Of a DNA stretch of 14,978 nucleotides, positions 2,619-14,820 are shown piece by piece. The notes under the pieces are model-generated. The model searched no databases. It saw only the letters and a list, made by a program, of their open reading frames with translations, and had not been told where the DNA came from. The translations under genes and the position numbers were made by a program. Source of the stretch: Bacteroidota bacterium (GTDB taxonomy: Bacteria; Bacteroidota; Bacteroidia; Bacteroidales; JADFUO01); the NCBI GenBank assembly GCA_030614305.1, contig JAUWKH010000012.1:1-14978 (forward strand), given 5' to 3'. The stretch's first letter is position 1; each line of letters begins with the position of its first letter.

Positions 2619-2740
2619 AAATTAATATTCATATGCATCATTTCATCACTCTACCATTTCATTATTCCACTTCTGTAATCAATTGTTGCAATATACACAA
2701 ACAGCTTAGACACAGCATATTGTGTTCTGCCTGGATAAAA

Positions 2741-5350
2741 ATGAAATTTATTTTTCTTGTTTCTTGTTTGCTTTTCACTGTTCTATTAAGGTCTCAGGTT
2801 ATAATTTTTGACAGCCTGCCTCAAAACGAAGTTGAAATTTATGAAAATCAGGCAAAGCAATTAGTTAATTTTTTGGAATATACTTTTAATTCTATCGGGA
2901 GTGATGAGTTTAGTCAGAAAGAAAAAGACATTATTTTTAATCAGAGTTATCTTAAAATCTTTAAAAATGATAAAGTTCAAGTTGAGGATGACCTTGATGA
3001 AAACAGGATAATTATAACAAATAAAGATGTTCAGGCATATTTAAAAGATATTGATTTCTTTTTTAAAAATGTAAAATTCAAATTTACGATTGAGGATATC
3101 AGCCATAATGTGAATGAAGAAAATCAATTATTCTTTAAGATAAAACTCAACAGAAACCTGATTGGCGTGACAATAGATAATGATTCTGTTAATAATAATA
3201 AAATAAGATATATTGAAATTAATCTTGATGAAGAAAATCAGGATTTGAAAATTGCAAGCATTTATACTACAAAATTAGATGAAAAAGAAGACCTGAGAAA
3301 CTGGTGGAATAATTTACCTTTTGTATGGAAAGAGATTCTCGGGGCAGAAAAAATACTTTATGATTCTATACTGATTTTTGATATAGTTTCATTTACCGAT
3401 TCAACTCTTGTAAAAGAAAAGGATACATTTTCAATAATTAAAATTGATACTTTATTGGTTTTTGATAGTGATACATTATTTATTAAAAATGCTGATACAA
3501 TGCCGGTCACAATGCCTGACACACTTAAGATTGACCCGGAAGAAATCTACAATGAACTAAAAAGAATTATAAATATTACTGAAATTGATGTTTCTGACAA
3601 TATAAATATCAGAAATTTAAAGCCATTGAGCAAACTCACCAATTTACAAACTGTGAATTGCTCCAACACTTTAATTGATGAACTTTTACCTTTAAGAAAC
3701 CTTACCAAACTGGAAATACTTGAATGTTCGGGAACATCTGTTGAAAATTTGGCTCCGCTGAGATATTCCACAGATTTAAAGGACATATTTTGCGACAATA
3801 CCCGGATTGAAGATTTATCTTCTTTATCAGGTTTTGCAAAACTTGAAAGATTATATTGTGATAACACACCTATTGACAGCCTTGAACCAATAGCAAACCT
3901 GATTCATCTGAAAGATCTGCGTTGCCAAAATACACTAATCAGTAATTTGGATGCACTTGAAAAACTTGTTAACCTGGAAATATTGAGCTTTTCCGGTACT
4001 CAGGTTAAAAGCCTTCAACCCCTGCGAAATTTATCAAAACTCCATATAATTTTTTTTGATAATACACCTGTTGGAGTTTTAGACCCCTTATTGAATTTGC
4101 CTGATCTGAAAAAGATCTATTGCGACAATACTTTGATAGATACTGATATTGCCAATCGTTTTATGAAATCAAATCCGCAATGTTTGGTTATTTATGAATC
4201 GGAAGAGCTGGAAAATTGGTGGGCAACAATACATTATACCTGGCAAAATGTTTTCTCCGGTTATATTAATGCAAGTATTCCTCCGACAAAAGAACAGCTT
4301 CACGAGATAATAAAATTAAACAATATTAATATCAATGGAAATAAAGAAATAAACACTTTAGAGCCTTTAAAAAAATTATTGTATCTTAATGAATTCCAGT
4401 GTTCAAATACCGGCATCAGCAACTTGGAACCATTAAGAGATTTAATAAATCTTCAGGTTTTTGATTGTAAACAAACAAAGGTTAGCAGTCTGGAACCTAT
4501 CGAAGATTTAAAAAACCTTGAAAGATTAGATGTTTCATACACACTGATTAATAGTTTTTCGTCATTATCAAATCTTGCAATGCTTGAGTATTTAAATTGT
4601 GATAATACTCAGGTTGAAAGTTTAGAACCATTAGTAGATTTAAACAGGTTAAAAATAGTTTACTGTGATAGTACAAACATAGGCATAAATGAGGTGAAAC
4701 AATTCAGGATAAAACGGCCGGAGTGCTTAGTGGTTTATCAGACGGATGAATTGTTAACCTGGTGGAAAAATTTACCTGAAGTATGGAAAAATGTTTTCAG
4801 AAGTTATATAAATTTAGGAACACCACCAACAAAAGAACAGATTCAGCAAATTGCCAATTTGGGAAAAATTAACATCAACGGCAACAACAAAATCGCCAAT
4901 CTGATTCCTTTGGAAAGATTACCTTATTTGAAAGAAGTAAGGTTTTCAGGCACACAAATCAATGACCTTAAACCTTTGAAAAATTTAACAAACCTTGAAC
5001 TAATTGAATGTGCAGATAATCCTGTCAGTAATATTGAACCATTGACTTATTTACCGAATTTAAAATATCTTGATGTTTCAAACACGCAGCTAAGGGATTT
5101 TGAGCAGGTGCAGCATATAATTGGTTTGGAAACATTGATCTGTCCGGGAACACAAATTAAAAACCTGAAATACCTTGAATACCTTATAAACCTGAAACAA
5201 CTTGAATGTTTTAATACTTCTGTTAAGAGCCTTCAGCCGGTTGAAGACCTTAATCTTAATAAATTAAAATGTTATAATACGAAAATATCACAGAAAAAAA
5301 TTGAAAAATACAAAGCAAAACATCCCGATTGTGAGGTGGTGTTTTATTAA
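2741..5350 (+). CDS. secreted leucine-rich-repeat protein with three WW-LRR modules
   Basis: 869 residues from the ATG at 2741, chosen because it starts a clean signal peptide (MKFIFLVSCLLFTVLLRSQ); the frame stays open upstream but without signal-like sequence. Residues about 20-180 form an N-terminal domain with VQVEDDLDENR and KDVQAYLKDIDFFFK. Three modules follow, opened by Trp pairs at residues 188, 493 and 674 (NWWNNLPFVWKEI, NWWATIHYTWQNVF, TWWKNLPEVWKNVF). After a Thr/Asp-rich linker (about 205-270) come LRR arrays of 8, 5 and 6 repeats, nearly all 22 residues long, with consensus LxPLxxLxxLxxLxCxNT. Each array closes with a cap of the type 'P.C.VVY', the last being the C-terminus. 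22-residue SDS22/internalin-like LRRs bind proteins, so a surface or periplasmic binding scaffold is likely; the partner is unknown. It lies downstream of, and co-directional with, the three exported genes. Confidence 0.88.
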   Translation: MKFIFLVSCLLFTVLLRSQVIIFDSLPQNEVEIYENQAKQLVNFLEYTFNSIGSDEFSQKEKDIIFNQSYLKIFKNDKVQVEDDLDENRIIITNKDVQAYLKDIDFFFKNVKFKFTIEDISHNVNEENQLFFKIKLNRNLIGVTIDNDSVNNNKIRYIEINLDEENQDLKIASIYTTKLDEKEDLRNWWNNLPFVWKEILGAEKILYDSILIFDIVSFTDSTLVKEKDTFSIIKIDTLLVFDSDTLFIKNADTMPVTMPDTLKIDPEEIYNELKRIINITEIDVSDNINIRNLKPLSKLTNLQTVNCSNTLIDELLPLRNLTKLEILECSGTSVENLAPLRYSTDLKDIFCDNTRIEDLSSLSGFAKLERLYCDNTPIDSLEPIANLIHLKDLRCQNTLISNLDALEKLVNLEILSFSGTQVKSLQPLRNLSKLHIIFFDNTPVGVLDPLLNLPDLKKIYCDNTLIDTDIANRFMKSNPQCLVIYESEELENWWATIHYTWQNVFSGYINASIPPTKEQLHEIIKLNNININGNKEINTLEPLKKLLYLNEFQCSNTGISNLEPLRDLINLQVFDCKQTKVSSLEPIEDLKNLERLDVSYTLINSFSSLSNLAMLEYLNCDNTQVESLEPLVDLNRLKIVYCDSTNIGINEVKQFRIKRPECLVVYQTDELLTWWKNLPEVWKNVFRSYINLGTPPTKEQIQQIANLGKININGNNKIANLIPLERLPYLKEVRFSGTQINDLKPLKNLTNLELIECADNPVSNIEPLTYLPNLKYLDVSNTQLRDFEQVQHIIGLETLICPGTQIKNLKYLEYLINLKQLECFNTSVKSLQPVEDLNLNKLKCYNTKISQKKIEKYKAKHPDCEVVFY

Positions 5351-6069: not shown

Positions 6070-9000
6070 TTATTTCCCAACCCTAACCCTTACTCCTTCC
6101 GAATGACTTGTAAACTCAGGTGCATACATGCACTGAATAGTTGTAATGCCATTTGAAAAATCTCCTTTTTGAGACACTATCAAAGGATATTCAAACACAT
6201 AGGTTCCTTTGTTTAAGTAATTAAAAAAGAAATTAGTGGCAGCATCGCGTGTGCTTTCGTAATAACCAAGTCCACCCTGATATTTGTAACCTGAAATTAC
6301 ATTCACAGGTTCAAAAGCCGAGGCGCGCATATCTTTCATGTGAACATATTCCATGTTCCTGTCAACACGCAAAATAATTCTTACTTTTATTTTGTCGCCG
6401 ATCCTTAAAATAGTGTTTTCTGTAACAGGCTCAATTACAGGACCGCTTGAAGTATTCTGTTCTACAAATAGTTTTTTCTCAAGACTTAATGGAGTTTTAT
6501 GAGAAGTTATTTTATCAAGATTTTCAAAATACTGCCAGTAAACAGCACCCCAGGCAACACCTTCATCATTTTTTGTTACAGTTATATTGCCCATATCAGG
6601 TTTAATTTCATTGCCTGTCCATGATGTCCGGAAATAGCCTGTACCTGCTTCTACATTTACGCCATCAATATTTTTTGGGTCAATTTTTTCGTTACCAATA
6701 GTAATATCAACCAATTCGTCACTTGCCAGCAAATCGGTTCCTCTGAGTATCAAAGCATAAATAGCTTCAGCAGTTGCTTTTGTGGTTTTCCAGTCCTGGG
6801 TTTGTTTTTGTTTCAGCAGCCAGATCTTCATTTCTTCAACAGCTTTTTTATCATCAGCTACTTCATCAAATGCTTCTATCAGCAATGCCTGGGTTTCAAT
6901 CGGAGCCTGATACCAGAAATATCCGGCAGGATTTCTCCAGTACATACCCATTTCGCCGGAATAAAGTGCCTTTTCTTTCAGGGATTTTATTATTGCCGAA
7001 GGGGTTGATTTGTATCCGTATCTGTTTAAAGCCAAGGCAATCATCCCTTGCATATAATTATTTTTATCAACCCAGTATTTATCAGCCTGATCTTTAAAAT
7101 AATTAAATGCTTTTTCATTCTTTTTCTGTATTTCAATATCATTTCTGAAAAAACTTCTGGCATACAAATACTGGATTTGAATATGGCTAAGATGGTCTTC
7201 ATCAATTTTTTCAGGGTGTCTGTTTAGAATATTTTCATAATCTTCATTAATTCTGTCATCTAAATATCTTACGGCTTTTTTAATCATATTCCATGAGTTT
7301 TTATTTGATTTACAGCTTTTTATTCCCAGATGTGCGAGATGACCAAAGCCGGTAACAATATGCTGTGTGATGTAACGGCTGTCTCTCATGCCTTTGAACC
7401 AGGGCCAGCCGCCGTTAGAAGTTTGCATCTGCTGTAGTTTGAATAAAGCACTTTGCAATTCATTTGACATTTTGTTCAGATCAAACAGTAATGAGATTCT
7501 TTTTTTGCGTTCGGATTCATTTTTTGCATTAAGCACCCATGGGGTTTCTTCAAGTATCACAGATTTCAGTTCCTGATTTTTCTCCAAATTTGAAAGCAAA
7601 GCATCAGGACTTAAATTTTTCCAGCTTTCAAAAATCCTTTTAATTTTCGGGTTTGAATTGGCAATGTGTGATGCTATACTGTTTGCATAATACCGGCTAT
7701 AAATTTGTTCGGAACATTCGTAAGGATATTCCATCAGGTAAGGTAATGCCTGAACTGCATACCATGCAGGGTTGGAAGTAAATTCAAGTGTTAATTTATA
7801 ATTACTGATGGTAGATGAAGTTGATGAATTTAATAGTTTAACGAACTTAAAATGTTTGGTTTGTTTTCCGTTTATCGGTAATGGCAATGATTCGGTAACA
7901 AGTATTCTGTTTGTGAGGACAGGAATTGCCATTTCTTCGCCGTCAGTGAATTTTCCTGATTTTGCAGTGATTCTGTAAGTGATGGCATCAATTCCACCCG
8001 GGATTGAAATTGTCCAGTTCAAAACCTGACTTTGTCCTTGTTTTACATAAAATGGCTTCCCGAAATTTTTATTATTCAAAAGCTCATCAATTGGTTTCAT
8101 GCTCAGAGCGTTAAAAAAATGAAGCTCAGCATAACCTGACAATTCTTTATCAGAAAGATCAACAATTTTTGCACTGAAAGTTATTGTGTCGCCAACTCTG
8201 AAAAAACGGGGAGGATTAGGAATAACCATCAGGTCTTTTTGGGTTACAAGCTCTTTTTGTATTTTTCCGATCATCAGATCCTTAGTATAAGCAAGTCCCA
8301 TCATTTTCCATTTTGTAAGTGATTCGGGGATGGTGAATTTAATAATAACATCTCCGTCTTTATTTGTCTCAAGATTTGGGAAGAAAAATGCAGTTTCATT
8401 AAAATCTCTCCTGATCTGAATTTTGGGACTTGATATTACGGGCTGTGTTTGTTCTTCTGAATCTTGTATTTCTTTTTCAGAAGTTGATTTTTTTAAGTCC
8501 TTTTCGTGTTTAATATCAGAGATTTCTAATTCGCCTTCGGGCATTGCAGTTGTTGCAAAAACATCTTCATCAGCCACAGCACCCATTCCTCTTATATTAT
8601 ATCTTCCATAAAAATTAAATCCGAACCAGTTTAATTTGTCGTAATTGCGGAAAACATAAGATTTTATATCATGACTTTTAGTTTTATAGTAGCGGCTTGA
8701 TTTCGTTTTAAAAGAATTGTTTGTTTTCCAACCCAATGAACTGTAGTATGTTTTATAAATATTAAAAAACCAATTGTTTTCCCTGAAAGCGTCCAAAGAG
8801 GCATCGTAAATTGTTGCAAGCATTTCGGCTGCAACTTTTTCACCTTTCTTTCCTCTTATTTTTATTTTCCATTCTTCTTTTTGACCCGGTAATAATTTAT
8901 TTCTGAAAGTTTCAAATTCAAGGGTTAATTCTTTATTTGTGTAAGGAACTTTAATAACAGCATTGTTCTGGTAGCTCCTGTTGTTTTTTACAAAAACCAG

Positions 9001-12000
9001 ATTTATTGCAAAATTGCCGCGGTACTCGTCTTTAATGGGAATTTCAATTAATTTTTGCTGACTGTTTAATTTTAAGAATTGCCTGCTTTTAATAGTGTCG
9101 TTATGCTGGATTTCATAAATAATGTTTACATTTTTTTCTTTTGTGCCGATTAAAAACGAGGCATTTTGTCCCGGCTCTCCTTTATCTTTTAACATTGTAA
9201 ACCAATTGATCGAATTATCGGGGATTACTTTTGCTTCCGTAGAATAAACGGTAAAATAATTTGTGATTTCAACTTCTTCACCAAATTTATCTTTTGCTGA
9301 AATTGTTAGTTTGTATGTTCCCTGCATCCAATCAGCAATATTGTTAAGTTTCAAAACAGAATCTTTTCCTGTATCAAATAAAATATCTGAAATCATCTTT
9401 TTTGTTTCCCATTTTGAAACATTATCCTCATCCTCATAAATATCATTAGGAAAATTTTTATAAAATTCTTCTTTATTAATAATAAATAAATCAGGACGTT
9501 GCCAATCCCGTTTTCTGAAAATTCTGTCGGGTTGTTTTAGTTTGTAAATGGAAATCTTACCTGATGTATTTACAAATTCTCCGTTAAGATTTGTTGATAT
9601 TATTTTAAACTCTTTTTGTTTATTTTGATTAACTTTTTCAGGAATGTCAACATTGAGCAATAATGTTTTGTAGCCAACAGCAATACTTTCCTCAGCAGAA
9701 TGAGTTTCGCCGTTAATATCGGTTACATCAGCGTAAACCATATAATTAAAAACAGGTTTGAATTTTTTATCAATGCTCAAATCGGGAATTGCTTTAAATT
9801 CAATTTCAAATTCACCATTTTCGTCAGTAGTTGTAAATCCGTTTGTAATTTCCATTTCTGCTGATTGCGGGTAAATCCATCTCCACCAAAATCCCCAATA
9901 AGGATATCTGACTGCTCGCACAACCCGGTATTTTACTTTTGCATTATCAATTGCATTTCCTGCATAAGCTTTAGCATTTCCAATTATTGTGAGAGCTTCG
10001 TTTAATTTATAACTGCCTTTTACAGGATTGAAAGTAACTTCAAATTTCGGGCGCTTATAATCTTCAACAGAAAAGTAAATCTTACCTGATTCGTTGGCAA
10101 TGCTCATTTGTCCGTTCAAAACACCTTGTGGTGCTGTAAAAGCTCCGTTAACCGAACCATAATCATTTGAGACCAATGTAAGTTTTGAAACTTCCTGACG
10201 GTTAACATCATAGAAAGTTACAGAAGTTTTATAATCAGGTTTGATTTTGTATTTTTCACCGTCTTTTTCTAAAATAATTCCTTTAAAATAAATCGTTTGA
10301 CCCGGGCGGTATATTGCCCTGTCAGTAAAGAAAAAAGTCTTCAGTTTCTTATCATCCGGGCGATAAAAATGGCGATACAGATTGAAATAATTCACGGTGA
10401 TGAGTGTATCGTTTTTATGTGAAAATTCAACATAAAATGATTTGTCGCCTGATATTTTTATAATTTTAAAATAACCGTTTTTATCAGATAAATATTCATT
10501 TGATTTATGAAACTCGTAAGTTCTTGTATTGTAATTATAATTTTTAATAAAAGTTTGTGCTTTAACATTTTTGACAGGTGTGCCGTTTTCACGGTCTAAG
10601 ATATAAAATTCAATGGTGCCGTCGGTTTTTTGCTGGCTGATAAAACTGATGTTTGAAATCCAGAACGAACTGTAAGCAACAGAATTTTTTAAAGAGAAAT
10701 TTTTGTCGCCTCCAACCAAAACAACATAATAACCCAAAGGAATTTCGGGCATTTTTATCTCAACCGAATGATTTTGAAAATCACCGTCATTTATCAGTTC
10801 AACCTGCCATTCCTTAACCGGAGATAATTTTTTATATTCCTTAATTAAATTTTCTTTTTTCAGATTTTGTTTTAGTTCCCTGTCTTTTTCAGGATTGATT
10901 TTTATAATTCTGAGATTAATGCCCGAAATATTTGTATACGAAATAAGACCAAGAAATGGTTTATCTGGTATGTTTGCATATTCGGTTGTAAGACTCAGTG
11001 AAGTTTCTTTAATTTGGTTAAGGAGGATTTTGCAGTTTTTTGCTCCGTCGGATTCAGGGAAGCGCCTGATAGCATCTTCACAGACTTCATACGCTTTCTT
11101 TTTATCCCATTTATATTTGTCGGAAACAAGAGGTTGGTATTGCTGACCTTTCTGAAAATATTGCTTTGCAATTTCATAAGAAACATCTGTGGAATTCTGG
11201 AAATCAATATATTTCTTTTCAAGTTTTGATAAAGCATTTAGGTAAATACTGTCTTTTAATTCAATGCCATAAGCATTTTGGCTTACAAATTTAAGGCGTT
11301 TTAAATCAACATCAATCAGTGCTGCCGGATTTTTATCATTAAGGTGAAAGGCAATTAAATCCTGCAATATTTCAATAGCATAAAATTTAAGTGAAAGAGA
11401 ATCCTTGGTTGTAATTTTCAGTTTTACGAAGTTTTGGGCAGGCTCAAAATATTCGGCTTTATTGAGTTCAAATTTGAAAACCGGTTGAGTAAGTGAATTT
11501 TCATCATTCATAAAAAAATCTATGGCACGGTGGGCAAGAAAATCATATAAGAACGGATGGTATTTTTTTGAGTTTTTTTCTTCTTTAATGATAATATTGA
11601 ATTTTTCTAATGGTATTTTTTTCAGTTCAGCGGGGTTTTTCAGCGAAAGCATATAATTTGAAATGATTTCCTGCATTATTTTTTTCAAGTCCCAGGTTTT
11701 AATGTCGTTACTTTTAATATTTATTGTTTCGGTTCTGTTTAAAAATTTGTAACGGTTAACCTGATAATAGCCCCAGTAAATTTCAGCAAGAATAGAATGA
11801 AGGATTTGTGTTACAGGCTCGTCTGAAGTTTTGATTTCTTCATTAAGATCCACGATTATTTTTTCAATAAAATCTTCCTTAAAATCACTTTGAAGACGCA
11901 TTTTAAACAATGTTGCTTTAATGAACTGGGATGCATTATTTGATTTTTTTGCACGTTCATAAATTATTTCAACAACCTTTAAAGCTGATTTTGGTAATCC

Positions 12001-12171
12001 CTGATTTATAAAGTTATCAACTTTTTTCCAGTCTTTTTCATAATCATCATTGTCAACCGGAAAGTCTAAAACTATTTGTTGTGAATTTTTTTGATTTTTT
12101 ACTGAGAAGCCGGTTAAGATTGCCGTAATACTTAGTAAGGCTATTAGAATTAGGATTTTTGTTTTCATCAT
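6070..12171 (-). CDS. alpha-2-macroglobulin family protein (large bacterial type)
   Basis: 2033 residues. An N-terminal signal peptide or membrane anchor (about 1-22) carries no lipobox Cys. Residues about 40-400 are helical and TPR-like. Macroglobulin-type beta domains follow, with TDRAIYRPGQTIYFKG at about residue 610. An acidic low-complexity stretch (about 1190-1250) stands where the protease bait lies in this family. The core A2M domain starts near 1255 (ETAFFFPNLETNKDGD, LTKWKMMGLAYT). The thioester motif is intact as Cys1486-Ser-Glu-Gln1489 in YPYECSEQIYSRYY, followed by the helical thioester domain and a C-terminal beta domain. In characterised members, bait cleavage exposes the thioester, which traps the protease covalently; bacterial forms are thought to guard the envelope. 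It stands alone, with no penicillin-binding-protein partner in view, and diverges from glyS. The MG boundaries are estimates. Confidence 0.95.
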   Translation of the reverse strand: MMKTKILILIALLSITAILTGFSVKNQKNSQQIVLDFPVDNDDYEKDWKKVDNFINQGLPKSALKVVEIIYERAKKSNNASQFIKATLFKMRLQSDFKEDFIEKIIVDLNEEIKTSDEPVTQILHSILAEIYWGYYQVNRYKFLNRTETINIKSNDIKTWDLKKIMQEIISNYMLSLKNPAELKKIPLEKFNIIIKEEKNSKKYHPFLYDFLAHRAIDFFMNDENSLTQPVFKFELNKAEYFEPAQNFVKLKITTKDSLSLKFYAIEILQDLIAFHLNDKNPAALIDVDLKRLKFVSQNAYGIELKDSIYLNALSKLEKKYIDFQNSTDVSYEIAKQYFQKGQQYQPLVSDKYKWDKKKAYEVCEDAIRRFPESDGAKNCKILLNQIKETSLSLTTEYANIPDKPFLGLISYTNISGINLRIIKINPEKDRELKQNLKKENLIKEYKKLSPVKEWQVELINDGDFQNHSVEIKMPEIPLGYYVVLVGGDKNFSLKNSVAYSSFWISNISFISQQKTDGTIEFYILDRENGTPVKNVKAQTFIKNYNYNTRTYEFHKSNEYLSDKNGYFKIIKISGDKSFYVEFSHKNDTLITVNYFNLYRHFYRPDDKKLKTFFFTDRAIYRPGQTIYFKGIILEKDGEKYKIKPDYKTSVTFYDVNRQEVSKLTLVSNDYGSVNGAFTAPQGVLNGQMSIANESGKIYFSVEDYKRPKFEVTFNPVKGSYKLNEALTIIGNAKAYAGNAIDNAKVKYRVVRAVRYPYWGFWWRWIYPQSAEMEITNGFTTTDENGEFEIEFKAIPDLSIDKKFKPVFNYMVYADVTDINGETHSAEESIAVGYKTLLLNVDIPEKVNQNKQKEFKIISTNLNGEFVNTSGKISIYKLKQPDRIFRKRDWQRPDLFIINKEEFYKNFPNDIYEDEDNVSKWETKKMISDILFDTGKDSVLKLNNIADWMQGTYKLTISAKDKFGEEVEITNYFTVYSTEAKVIPDNSINWFTMLKDKGEPGQNASFLIGTKEKNVNIIYEIQHNDTIKSRQFLKLNSQQKLIEIPIKDEYRGNFAINLVFVKNNRSYQNNAVIKVPYTNKELTLEFETFRNKLLPGQKEEWKIKIRGKKGEKVAAEMLATIYDASLDAFRENNWFFNIYKTYYSSLGWKTNNSFKTKSSRYYKTKSHDIKSYVFRNYDKLNWFGFNFYGRYNIRGMGAVADEDVFATTAMPEGELEISDIKHEKDLKKSTSEKEIQDSEEQTQPVISSPKIQIRRDFNETAFFFPNLETNKDGDVIIKFTIPESLTKWKMMGLAYTKDLMIGKIQKELVTQKDLMVIPNPPRFFRVGDTITFSAKIVDLSDKELSGYAELHFFNALSMKPIDELLNNKNFGKPFYVKQGQSQVLNWTISIPGGIDAITYRITAKSGKFTDGEEMAIPVLTNRILVTESLPLPINGKQTKHFKFVKLLNSSTSSTISNYKLTLEFTSNPAWYAVQALPYLMEYPYECSEQIYSRYYANSIASHIANSNPKIKRIFESWKNLSPDALLSNLEKNQELKSVILEETPWVLNAKNESERKKRISLLFDLNKMSNELQSALFKLQQMQTSNGGWPWFKGMRDSRYITQHIVTGFGHLAHLGIKSCKSNKNSWNMIKKAVRYLDDRINEDYENILNRHPEKIDEDHLSHIQIQYLYARSFFRNDIEIQKKNEKAFNYFKDQADKYWVDKNNYMQGMIALALNRYGYKSTPSAIIKSLKEKALYSGEMGMYWRNPAGYFWYQAPIETQALLIEAFDEVADDKKAVEEMKIWLLKQKQTQDWKTTKATAEAIYALILRGTDLLASDELVDITIGNEKIDPKNIDGVNVEAGTGYFRTSWTGNEIKPDMGNITVTKNDEGVAWGAVYWQYFENLDKITSHKTPLSLEKKLFVEQNTSSGPVIEPVTENTILRIGDKIKVRIILRVDRNMEYVHMKDMRASAFEPVNVISGYKYQGGLGYYESTRDAATNFFFNYLNKGTYVFEYPLIVSQKGDFSNGITTIQCMYAPEFTSHSEGVRVRVGK

Positions 12172-12376: not shown

Positions 12377-13705
12377 ATGGTAAATAACGAAGATCTTTTT
12401 AAAAAAATTATATCCCATTCCAAAGAGTATGGGTTTGTGTTTCAGTCGAGTGAAATATATGACGGCTTAGCTGCTGTTTATGATTACGGTCAATATGGTG
12501 TTGAACTGAAAAATAATATCAAAGACCATTGGTGGAAAGCAATGGTTCAGTATAATGAAAATATTGTTGGAGTGGATTCGGCAATTTTCATGCATCCTAC
12601 TGTTTGGAAAGCTTCGGGGCATGTTGATGCATTTAATGATCCGATGATTGATAATAAAGATTCAAAAAAAAGATACAGGGCTGATGTTTTGATTGAGGAC
12701 CATATTACAAAAATTGAAGGAAAAATTCAAAAAGAAGTTACAAAAGCAAAAAAACGATTTGGCGAAACTTTTGACGAATCACAGTTTTTATCTACTAATC
12801 CAAGAGTTCTTACTAACAAAAAAAAGATAGAGGAAATAAAGAACCGATTATATCCGGCAATGGATAATAATGATTTGGAAGATATTAAATTATTGATTGA
12901 GGAATTAGGGGTTGTTTGTCCTTTTTCAGGTTCAAAAAACTGGACGGATGTCCGTCAGTTTAATTTGATGTTTTCCACTCAAATAGGTTCATTAAGCGAT
13001 GATTCCGATAAAATATATTTAAGACCTGAAACTGCCCAGGGTATTTTTGTAAATTACCTCAATATTCAAAAAACCGGAAGGATGAAAATACCTTTTGGCA
13101 TTGCACAGATTGGGAAAGCATTCAGGAATGAGATTGTTGCACGTCAGTTTATTTTCCGTATGCGTGAGTTTGAACAAATGGAAATGCAGTTTTTTGTCCG
13201 TCCCGGCGAAGAAATGAAGTGGTACGAATACTGGAAAGAACAAAGAATAAAATGGCATCTGTCATTGGGTATTCCCGAATCAAAATACCGTTTTCATGAA
13301 CATGATAAACTGGCACATTATGCAAATGCTGCTGCTGATATAGAATTTGAATTTCCTATCGGATTCAAGGAGATTGAAGGAATTCATTCAAGAACGGATT
13401 TTGATCTTGAGGCTCATCAAAAATACACAGGTAGAAAAATTCAGTATTTTGACCCCGAGATCAATAAAAGTTATGTGCCTTATGTAGTTGAAACTTCTCT
13501 TGGTTTAGACAGAACCTTCCTTGCAATTATCAGTTATGCTTATACTGAAGAAAGATTAGAAGATGGCTCGGAACGTGTGGTTATGAAAATACTTCCTGCT
13601 CTTGCCCCCATAAAGGCTGCTGTTTTGCCTCTTGTAAAAAAAGACGGACTTCCTGAAAAAGCCCGTGAGATCATGGATTTCCTGAAATTTGACTACTTAT
13701 GCTAG
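12377..13705 (+). CDS. glyS: glycyl-tRNA synthetase, cut short by an in-frame TAG
   Basis: Class II, alpha2-type GlyRS, which charges tRNA-Gly with glycine. Visible parts are the N-terminal catalytic section with YDYGQYGVELKNNIK, motif 2 with FRNE at 249-252 (FRNEIVARQFIFRMREFEQME), and motif 3 with GLDR at 376-379. The anticodon-binding domain begins near 405 (ALAPIKAAVLPLVKKDG). The reading frame stops at codon 443, TAG (13703-13705), where the family normally has Gln ([22 protein letters not shown]). A single C-to-T change of CAG would explain it. The next 65 codons are in the same frame and read as the missing GlyRS C-terminus up to TAA at 13901-13903, which would give about 508 residues, near normal. 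As written, the protein loses most of its anticodon-binding domain. It is either a pseudogene, a suppressed amber, or a sequence error; the otherwise intact frame means the change is recent or artificial. Confidence 0.9.
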   Translation: MVNNEDLFKKIISHSKEYGFVFQSSEIYDGLAAVYDYGQYGVELKNNIKDHWWKAMVQYNENIVGVDSAIFMHPTVWKASGHVDAFNDPMIDNKDSKKRYRADVLIEDHITKIEGKIQKEVTKAKKRFGETFDESQFLSTNPRVLTNKKKIEEIKNRLYPAMDNNDLEDIKLLIEELGVVCPFSGSKNWTDVRQFNLMFSTQIGSLSDDSDKIYLRPETAQGIFVNYLNIQKTGRMKIPFGIAQIGKAFRNEIVARQFIFRMREFEQMEMQFFVRPGEEMKWYEYWKEQRIKWHLSLGIPESKYRFHEHDKLAHYANAAADIEFEFPIGFKEIEGIHSRTDFDLEAHQKYTGRKIQYFDPEINKSYVPYVVETSLGLDRTFLAIISYAYTEERLEDGSERVVMKILPALAPIKAAVLPLVKKDGLPEKAREIMDFLKFDYLC

Positions 13706-13903
13706 TATGATGAAAAAGATGCAATCGGAAGGCGTTACAGAAGACAGGATGCTATCGGAACACCTTATTGTATAACTATTGACCACCAAACCCTTGAAGA
13801 TAATACTGTAACTATCAGAGAAAGGGATTCAATGGGGCAGGAGAGAATAGCGATTGAAAAAATTTCTGGGATTATCTCAAAAAAATTAAAAGAGGAGAAG
13901 TAA
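13706..13903 (+). pseudogene. glyS: detached C-terminal part of glyS
   Basis: This continues the glyS frame after the [23 protein letters not shown], then [20 protein letters not shown], the canonical core of the GlyRS anticodon-binding domain. The last residues, about [13 protein letters not shown], do not look like a normal GlyRS ending, and the same DNA read two bases later is PIN-domain-like. The true GlyRS 3' end may therefore have been replaced near 13862. There is no start codon context for independent translation. Confidence 0.8.
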
Positions 13904-14112: not shown

Positions 14113-14134
14113 GTTATCAACAATTGTTAATAAC
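14113..14134. repeat. 22-bp imperfect palindrome
   Basis: GTTATCAACA and TGTTAATAAC flank a central AT, with one mismatched pair. Each half resembles a DnaA box with one or more deviations. It lies about 75-100 bp upstream of the expected start of the putative RNA and could be a regulator site. No further boxes or AT-rich unwinding region support an origin. Confidence 0.35.
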
Positions 14135-14173: not shown

Positions 14174-14205
14174 TTGACCTCGGGTAGTTTTATATTGTAT
14201 ATTTG
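14174..14205 (+). promoter_or_regulatory. Bacteroidota-type promoter for the putative RNA
   Basis: TTG (14174-14176), a 21-bp spacer and TATATTTG (14198-14205) match the -33/-7 arrangement of the Bacteroidota major sigma factor. Transcription should start near 14210-14212. This is the best-formed promoter in the window, and no coding frame follows it. Confidence 0.7.
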
Positions 14206-14210
14206 TTTCA

Positions 14211-14540
14211 TCAAGTGAGGGATAAAAGGCGAGCCGAAAAAAGCTAAGGAGAAGGGAAAGTGAAAACCGCAAGGAAGGAGCAAAACCAACTCCACTTTCA
14301 AAGGAAAGCCAAGCCGAGAGGCGGAAGCAGGAACTTGAAAGAGCCTTCGAAAGCTTGGATTTAGAAGAGCGTTACCCGCACGGGTAAAGAGCGGCTAAAA
14401 CCTGACAAACGGGGAAGCTCCTCGGAGAAGAACCAAAAAAGTCAGTCACAATAACAGTAACTTGGCACAAACTGAAAGCTACGGCATTCAGCAAGTGAAC
14501 GGGAATCTATTCCAAAAGAATGGGTTCCCGTTGTGTTTTT
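14211..14540 (+). ncRNA. putative structured non-coding RNA, family not recognised
   Basis: A stretch of about 330 nt with its own promoter and terminator. 14221-14520 is about 47% G+C by my count, in surroundings near 30%, and it is rich in GAAA- and GGAA-type purine runs, as structured RNAs in AT-rich genomes are. No open frame of note runs through it. Possible helices: AGCCG 14232-14236 with CGGCT 14392-14396 as a closing stem; inside it GAAAGTG 14256-14262 with CACTTTC 14293-14299, GCC/GGC around GAGA (14313-14322), and TTACCC/GGGTAA closing a GCAC loop (14372-14387). Next come CTGAC 14402-14406 with GTCAG 14441-14445, then a two-part hairpin ACTTG/CAAGT and CTGAA/TTCAG (14460-14496), then the terminator. 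It lacks the conserved segments of RNase P RNA, tmRNA and SRP RNA that I know. A HEARO/omega-like or other large RNA class is possible but untested. Confidence 0.6.
14498..14540 (+). terminator. intrinsic terminator of the putative RNA
   Basis: A continuous 15-bp stem (14498-14512 with 14518-14532, two G-U pairs) closes a CAAAA loop and is followed by GTG and five T's. The GC-rich base AACGGGAA/TTCCCGTT is perfect. Confidence 0.85.
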
Positions 14541-14593
14541 ATATAGTACTTTGTAGAAAATTTAACGGTATTTTTTTGTTGACCAACACTACT

Positions 14594-14820
14594 TAGTGTC
14601 CGTCTATAAAGTCCGATAGTTTAAATAATTATTAAAAATCACAAATGACAAGCACCAAATTTCAAAACTTGTCCGTCTGGATAAATTACAATGTTCAAAA
14701 ATTCAATGACCAAAACAGTTTCGGTCATTTTATCATTGATATTTCGAATTTATTTGTTATTTGTTTATTGATATTTGGTGCTTTAATTTTAATAAATTTT
14801 GACTTTATGGACGGTCATTA
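14594..14820. mobile_element. MITE-like foldback element, copy 2
   Basis: About 225 bp forming a long imperfect palindrome. The ends CCGTCTATAAAGTC (14600-14613) and GACTTTATGGACGG (14801-14814) are inverted with 13 of 14 matching. Further in, AAGCACCAAAT (14650-14660) pairs perfectly with ATTTGGTGCTT (14773-14783), and AATGACC/GGTCATT lies near the centre. The left end is similar to the element at 2414. There is no transposase; a 94-codon open frame across it is a by-product of the palindrome. Its right end touches the stop codon of the minus-strand gene at 14818. Confidence 0.65.

Follow-up and report, generated by a model that had tools for sequence, protein, structure and literature searches.

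Large structured RNAs are rare in bacteria, and several of them have proved to be central machines. OLE, GOLLD, ROOL and raiA/ModT are large structured non-coding RNAs that are long, independently transcribed, elaborately folded and conserved, and they come from a different phylum from the family described here. Bacterial Y RNAs, the partners of Ro60, pair their 5′ end with their 3′ end, keep an internal feature conserved and vary in the distal part. RNAs such as CsrB and RsmZ are long, carry many hairpins and end in a strong terminator. Within the Bacteroidota, a table in PMC2864571 gives 6S-flavo (RF01685) as the 6S family of the phylum.

Here we describe a non-coding RNA gene of about 330 nt at positions 14210-14541 (+) of the window, by which we mean the whole 14,978-nt stretch of DNA that was analysed (contig JAUWKH010000012.1 of assembly GCA_030614305.1, order Bacteroidales). 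Comparative evidence makes it almost certain that the gene belongs to a real, independently transcribed, structured RNA family, and we consider it very probable that this family is not a catalogued one. Taken as a whole, 14210-14541 probably encodes a trans-acting large structured non-coding RNA of an undescribed family of the class Bacteroidia, in which a regulator, boxA and protein docking may each have a role. The initial annotation, which proposed a structured RNA of no recognised kind, equipped with a promoter and a terminator, is borne out by the lack of an Rfam match, by 97 distinct full-length sequences and by strong covariation. It had started the RNA at 14211, one base off the transcription start that we place at 14210, and it did not include the palindrome at 14113-14134, the end-to-end pairing or the conserved internal loop.

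The composition of the locus also agrees with that first description, of about 330 nt of non-coding, purine-rich sequence at about 47% G+C in AT-rich surroundings. The G+C content of positions 14211-14541 is 46.5%, higher than in the window as a whole (32%) and in the flanks (26-29%); purines make up 65%, and the longest stop-free run in any of the six frames is 61 codons. The window RNA is predicted to fold at −96 kcal/mol, compared to −78.7 kcal/mol for dinucleotide shuffles (sd 5.6, z −3.1), a stability reached by 0 of 100 shuffles.

The initial annotation had pointed to blastn as a source of homologues, and relatives were indeed found in 26 of 149 genomes at E ≤ 0.01, the RNA’s own genome included. 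The matches fall separately on the 5′ and 3′ ends, with a middle that varies in length. A covariance model (R1) was built from 16 aligned 3′ ends, leaving the 5′ end outside the model, and was run on 294 strictly filtered genomes of at least 85% completeness. It matched 73 of them at E ≤ 0.01, 64 of these at E ≤ 1e-6, own genome included; the other 221 had no match at E ≤ 0.01, and the RNA is not universal. Sixty regions around the better R1 matches were taken for reading. A 5′ block of consensus [A][C/T]C[A/G][A/G]G[C/T]GAG[A/C/G]GATAAAAGG, searched for with up to 5 substitutions, lies upstream of all 64 of the 3′ domains read (that of the window and 63 others), in 59 cases with at most 2 substitutions.

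Further members came from wider searches. A pattern scan of GTDB contigs gave 47 matches, spread over 46 records that are without exception metagenome-assembled genomes. Of these matches, 34 are additional members that possess the 5′ block, 11 had been collected previously and two lack the block, one being too short (L151) and one showing none (L154). The records are labelled Bacteroidales, Bacteroidetes, Bacteroidota or Bacteroidia, with two Bacteroides sp. and one each of Mariniphaga, Cyclobacteriaceae and Chlorobiota. The core of the ‘Chlorobiota’ record (L127) is identical to that of a member from the order (L069), the Cyclobacteriaceae record is L154, with no 5′ block seen, and the metagenome-assembled Mariniphaga (L160) is the sole genus name among matches having both ends. 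A second covariance model (R2), built from 63 sequences, was run across the class and at E ≤ 1e-3 picked out 26 of 346 genomes, one of them the RNA’s own. Of 28 class-level loci beyond the order, 18 combine the 5′ block (at most 3 substitutions) with at least 5 of 6 P1 pairs; loci failing this joint rule (L178, L185-L187, L188-L191, L192 and L193) are not counted. In a sample of the phylum, 4 of 247 genomes matched at E ≤ 1e-6, own included, all within the class. By these matches, roughly one in five of the relatives sampled (64 of 294) has the RNA family, which also extends to further orders of the class; many environmental bacteria related to gut Bacteroides carry it. The covariance model can be applied to any genome.

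Four loci of one genus among those not counted (L188-L191) are weak matches (E 2e-5 to 7e-4) with RNAs of about 365 to 630 nt, their ends set by eye. Judged by eye, they keep the promoter, the UCAAG/CUUG ends (P1), a UNCG hairpin and the terminator around a different internal loop. A ATCAGCGTTCGC-like unit occurs in seven copies each in L190 and L191, partly at a spacing of about 26 nt, in three copies in L188 and not in L189. The RNA of these four loci has no Rfam match.

Transcription appears to start from a promoter of the RNA’s own. The promoter first proposed, TTG-N21-TATATTTG, is exact: the −33 element TTG lies at 14174-14176 (+) and, after 21 nt, the −7 element TATATTTG, of the Bacteroidota TAnnTTTG type, at 14198-14205 (+). 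TAnnTTTG is present in 93 of 96 members, beginning 12-13 nt ahead of the 5′ block; control stretches taken 200 nt farther upstream contain none. Of the 93 members with a −7 element, 89 have TTG 14-30 nt 5′ of it. A simple sigma-70 scan of the window gave 3 promoter-like sites against 3.8 expected and is not evidence by itself; what lifts the promoter call above chance is the conservation of TAnnTTTG before the 5′ block. Its fixed distance from the block puts the predicted transcription start at the block’s first A, which is conserved in 93% of the 97 members and corresponds to 14210 in the window; the 3′ end at 14541 is set from the terminator.

Further upstream, a 22-bp palindrome, GTTATCAACAATTGTTAATAAC, at 14113-14134 (no strand assigned) is centred about 86 nt before the RNA start. 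In its family form, TTATTAACA-N2/3-TGTTAATAA, it is present with at most 2 mismatches over 18 half-site positions in 80 of 92 members and 0 of 92 control stretches, and with at most 4 mismatches in 90 of 92 members and again no control stretch. Among the 90 members whose site can be recognised, 86 have its centre 85-88 nt upstream. At fixed spacing and at most 1 mismatch, 11 of 13 carrier genomes have exactly one site, at the RNA, and 0 of 10 non-carrier genomes have any. One of the 13 outside this pattern, G010, has a palindrome with a wider, 3-nt centre at its RNA. In G267 the palindrome is not at the RNA, and two sites stand before genes that by eye are dnaB-like (L212) and batD-like (L211). 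Allowing 2 mismatches at fixed spacing gave 69 sites in 49 of 62 carriers, of which 46 (in 44 genomes) lie at the RNA and 23 elsewhere; a reversed-pattern control gave 16. These counts skip sites with a 3-nt centre (31 of 90 members), so that they are low at the RNA, and cover fixed spacing only elsewhere. Among the 23, a perfect site in G271 probably marks the promoter of another copy, severed by the contig end. Outside the order the palindrome is not recognisable, the best sites having 5-7 mismatches. We regard this distribution as the mark of a site serving essentially one gene, and the palindrome as a putative operator near-private to the RNA. It resembles two head-to-head DnaA boxes, and a DnaA-box reading was also considered on account of GTTTTCCACAATTGTGGAAAAC in the class-level locus L174 and of the G267 site before the dnaB-like gene; this reading is weakened by the absence of the site from all 10 non-carriers.

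The two ends of the RNA pair with each other. In the window, the P1 5′ strand UCAAGU (14211-14216, +) pairs with the 3′ strand ACUUGG (14460-14465, +); across the family, YCARGY at the 5′ end forms this stem with RCYUGR close to the 3′ end. Statistics on P1 and the loop come from 97 distinct RNAs, the window’s included, out of 98 collected. Standard pairs fill 96% of P1 cells in these RNAs, compared to 3-47% when one strand is slid by 1-4 nt. One P1 pair is A-U in 66, G-C in 25 and G-U in 6, and so paired in 97 of 97 against a shuffled maximum of 87, while the innermost is intact in just 79 of 97, which does not exceed the shuffled level. Inside P1 and across an internal loop, P2 joins GGC (14228-14230, +) to GUC (14445-14447, +). 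As GGC/GYC it reaches 97% pairing over 90 RNAs, the 7 whose loop is shifted being excluded, and 4-66% when slid, a slide of −4 still giving 66%. Over P1 and P2, G.U exceeds A.C by 102 to 19, as expected if the (+) strand is the RNA.

Between P1 and P2 lies the most conserved part of the RNA, GAGNGAUAAAA opposite ANAAUAACNGUA. The 5′ strand of the loop, GAGGGAUAAAA (14217-14227, +), has 8 of its 11 positions at least 95% conserved in the 97 RNAs, the remaining three being 91, 82 and 47% conserved. In the 3′ strand, ACAAUAACAGUA (14448-14459, +), AAUAAC is 94-100% and GUA 98-100% conserved. By eye, NGUA/GAG of the loop is possibly loop-E-like.

The 3′ end of the gene holds two more conserved helices. 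A hairpin at 14472-14491 (+) with a UNCG-type loop, C(UACG)G, has 82% of its cells paired, and over 62 distinct rows each of its 7 pairs varies in both strands. The intrinsic terminator at 14498-14541 (+), 94% paired and with 12 of 13 modelled pairs changing on both sides, has in the window the 15-bp stem (14498-14532) that had been called there, followed by the T tail GTGTTTTTAT. Jointly, the hairpin and terminator are 89.8% paired, against 63.9% when shuffled, and 19 of the 20 pairs vary in both strands, as counted on an alignment that had been fitted to that structure. G.U outnumbers A.C by 70 to 17 in the terminator and by just 24 to 19 in the hairpin, and a T-run follows the stem in 87 of 96 members (loose pattern). 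The initial annotation would have withdrawn the RNA call if homologues, covariation and a transcript were all missing; the relatives found and these 19 of 20 pairs, with 96% pairing in P1 and 97% in P2, point the other way.

We propose that the RNA is most likely a trans-acting ribonucleoprotein scaffold or regulatory RNA. A scaffold or protein-holding RNA is our tentative preference over an antisense regulator. That a protein holds the RNA at its core is suggested by the combination of an invariant paired-end core, a plastic interior, a promoter of its own with a near-private site, and no fixed neighbour. In this model, a dedicated dimeric regulator at the palindrome would set transcription of the RNA, the core of P1, internal loop, P2 and 3′ hairpin would dock a protein, and the variable domain may act as a scaffold, a spacer or a second binding surface. 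It is tempting to go further and to see here a large ribonucleoprotein RNA of a new class, belonging to the Bacteroidia and without known counterpart, an old chromosomal RNA with a paired-end core that binds a protein or ligand, a freely evolving interior, a private operator and, in part, rRNA-type antitermination; we hold this broader view with something short of even confidence. The family makes it testable which protein holds a new Bacteroidota ribonucleoprotein.

Antitermination enters this model through boxA, which acts through NusB/S10. A boxA, GTTCTTT, occurs in 25 of 64 members, and in 23 of 60 of a reduced set against 1.4 expected; even the hexamer TTCTTT is absent from 39 of 64, among them the window’s own RNA. 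16S genes were found in 4 of 12 carrier genomes searched, and GTTCTTT is present in all 5 of the 16S leaders read. These five (L195-L199, four carrier genomes) share the boxA GTTCTTTGA about 105-115 nt upstream of 16S, and some hold further copies. In the many members that have it, boxA could recruit the NusB/S10 antitermination complex, which may allow the long untranslated transcript to be completed. The members with the motif show that a non-ribosomal RNA of the Bacteroidota can carry boxA signals of the rRNA type.

The interior of the RNA, a variable domain of several hairpins at 14231-14444 (+), invites another explanation. The distance from 5′ block to core ranges from 197 to 564 nt (median 336), and UNCG and GNRA loops are enriched family-wide, with CUUCGG, CUACGG, CGCAAG and CGAAAG strongly so. 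RNAalifold gave a partly resolved fold for the window’s 11-sequence clade and, for a 15-sequence clade, a predicted multi-helix fold of 132 pairs, 53 of them with compensatory changes, each fold being scored on the alignment that produced it. A long, purine-rich RNA with many short hairpins could be a CsrB-like sponge, titrating an RNA-binding regulator through repeated hairpin loops, some members do show internal repetition (z up to 6.2), and L190 and L191 have their seven units each. However, the median z for internal repetition is 0.9, the enriched loops are generic stable tetraloops, and conservation peaks in the P1 core rather than in the hairpins. The likeness to CsrB and RsmZ in length, hairpins and terminator does not extend to the loops, here UNCG/GNRA, nor to the partner: none of 26 genomes, including 16 carriers, encodes CsrA (PF02599), although another binding protein is possible. 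We consider a sponge unlikely.

An antisense-type regulatory RNA that pairs with mRNAs, about equally unlikely, would be in keeping with the lack of a fixed neighbour gene, and GibS of B. thetaiotaomicron offers a precedent (PMC7366714). But the invariant segments are opposed within a closed internal loop, a better fit to a structural motif than to a seed, and L106, L116 and L120 appear by eye to have swapped part of this loop for Watson-Crick pairs.

A slightly lower chance is that the RNA has already been described under a name outside Rfam. Our novelty claim depends on Rfam 15, in the copy current on 30 Sep 2026, and on a limited literature check. Rfam scans covered the window, 8 relatives and 9 loci at E ≤ 1, 5 of which repeat RNAs of the 8. 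Where a strong match would have ended any claim to novelty, the window RNA and 12 distinct relatives gave 0 matches at gathering thresholds; at E ≤ 10 the window gave six weak matches, none on the RNA’s own strand. The library presumably contains 6S-flavo, HEARO, ROOL, GOLLD, OLE, raiA and group II models. OLE, GOLLD, ROOL and raiA differ from this family accordingly, having no covariance match to it, and the core here is a short closing stem and internal loop around a plastic interior. Literature coverage is thin, which leaves room for an earlier description outside Rfam; the limited search, which included the accessible parts of PMC2864571 and PMC7366714, returned no matching RNA.

It is still less probable that this is a 6S-like RNA binding RNA polymerase, its closing stem and internal loop imitating an open promoter. 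The ends do pair around a conserved asymmetric loop, and RF00013 was found in 0 of 25 genomes of the order, which says little, as it is absent from all 25 whether they are carriers or not. P1, however, is just 6 bp, and the RNA is longer with a branched predicted fold. 6S-flavo (RF01685) is likewise a Bacteroidota non-coding RNA, yet it is unmatched in the Rfam scans and differs from this branched RNA with its 6-bp closing stem.

Three other known RNAs were considered and set aside. RNase P RNA of class A is alike in size, but all 26 genomes examined, 16 of them carriers, have a separate RF00010 gene elsewhere (including G000:C206). ARAGORN found 0 tmRNAs in the window. Y RNAs have the same paired-end layout; here there is no Rfam match, and Ro60/TROVE (PF05731) is present in 0 of 26 genomes, including 16 carriers.

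The genes around the RNA differ between clades. Of 30 neighbour families recurring in at least 4 of 60 loci, 20 were examined by Pfam and are ordinary chromosomal genes, among them RelA/SpoT, DnaG, SRAP, ClpS, FloA, a tRNA synthetase and DNA polymerase III; the other 10 were viewed only as sequence starts. A convergent dnaG lies downstream of the RNA in 8 loci of the window’s clade. In 9 of 60 loci, from six families, relA/spoT is found no more than about 1 kb away: downstream in L065, L073 and L082, and upstream in L081, L102, L106, L110, L115 and L120. This proximity could be a vestige of where the gene originally lay, or could hint at a tie to the stringent response. That the RNA is a leader or attenuator acting in cis on the next gene is highly improbable: in those three downstream loci relA/spoT begins shortly past the terminator and on the same strand, but it is upstream in six, dnaG is convergent in 8, and neighbours vary by clade.

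Just as improbable is a mobile-element remnant or guide RNA (HEARO/omega, group II intron or retron), for which the large structured RNA and the two sense-strand copies in 8 of 73 matched genomes, some tandem, could speak, but which has no Rfam match, no transposase, reverse transcriptase or RNA-guided nuclease among the 20 of 30 recurrent neighbour families examined by Pfam, and nothing in plasmid and phage records (blastn) or in viral contigs (two exact patterns). The initial annotation’s suggestion of HEARO/omega or a group II remnant is thus not upheld; an adjacent IscB or TnpB frame, as expected for HEARO/omega, was likewise found in none of these 20. Tandem copies occur in G041, G075 and G253, as well as in the Mariniphaga genome (L160); the copies are 88 and 91% alike in two of the tandem pairs and 71% alike over 302 nt in a third.

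The remainder of the window holds other genes of note. A leucine-rich-repeat protein of 905 aa is encoded at 2633-5350, and a bacterial alpha-2-macroglobulin-like protein of 2033 aa (MG2, A2M, bMG10) at 6070-12171 (−). Upstream of the RNA, a glycyl-tRNA synthetase-like frame (PF00587) at 12377-13901 contains an in-frame stop at 13703-13705, which the close relatives L061 and L062 do not have at that position, either an assembly error or a mutation. Downstream, a second terminator-like hairpin at 14705-14729 (−) possibly belongs to a convergent dnaG, as in close relatives.
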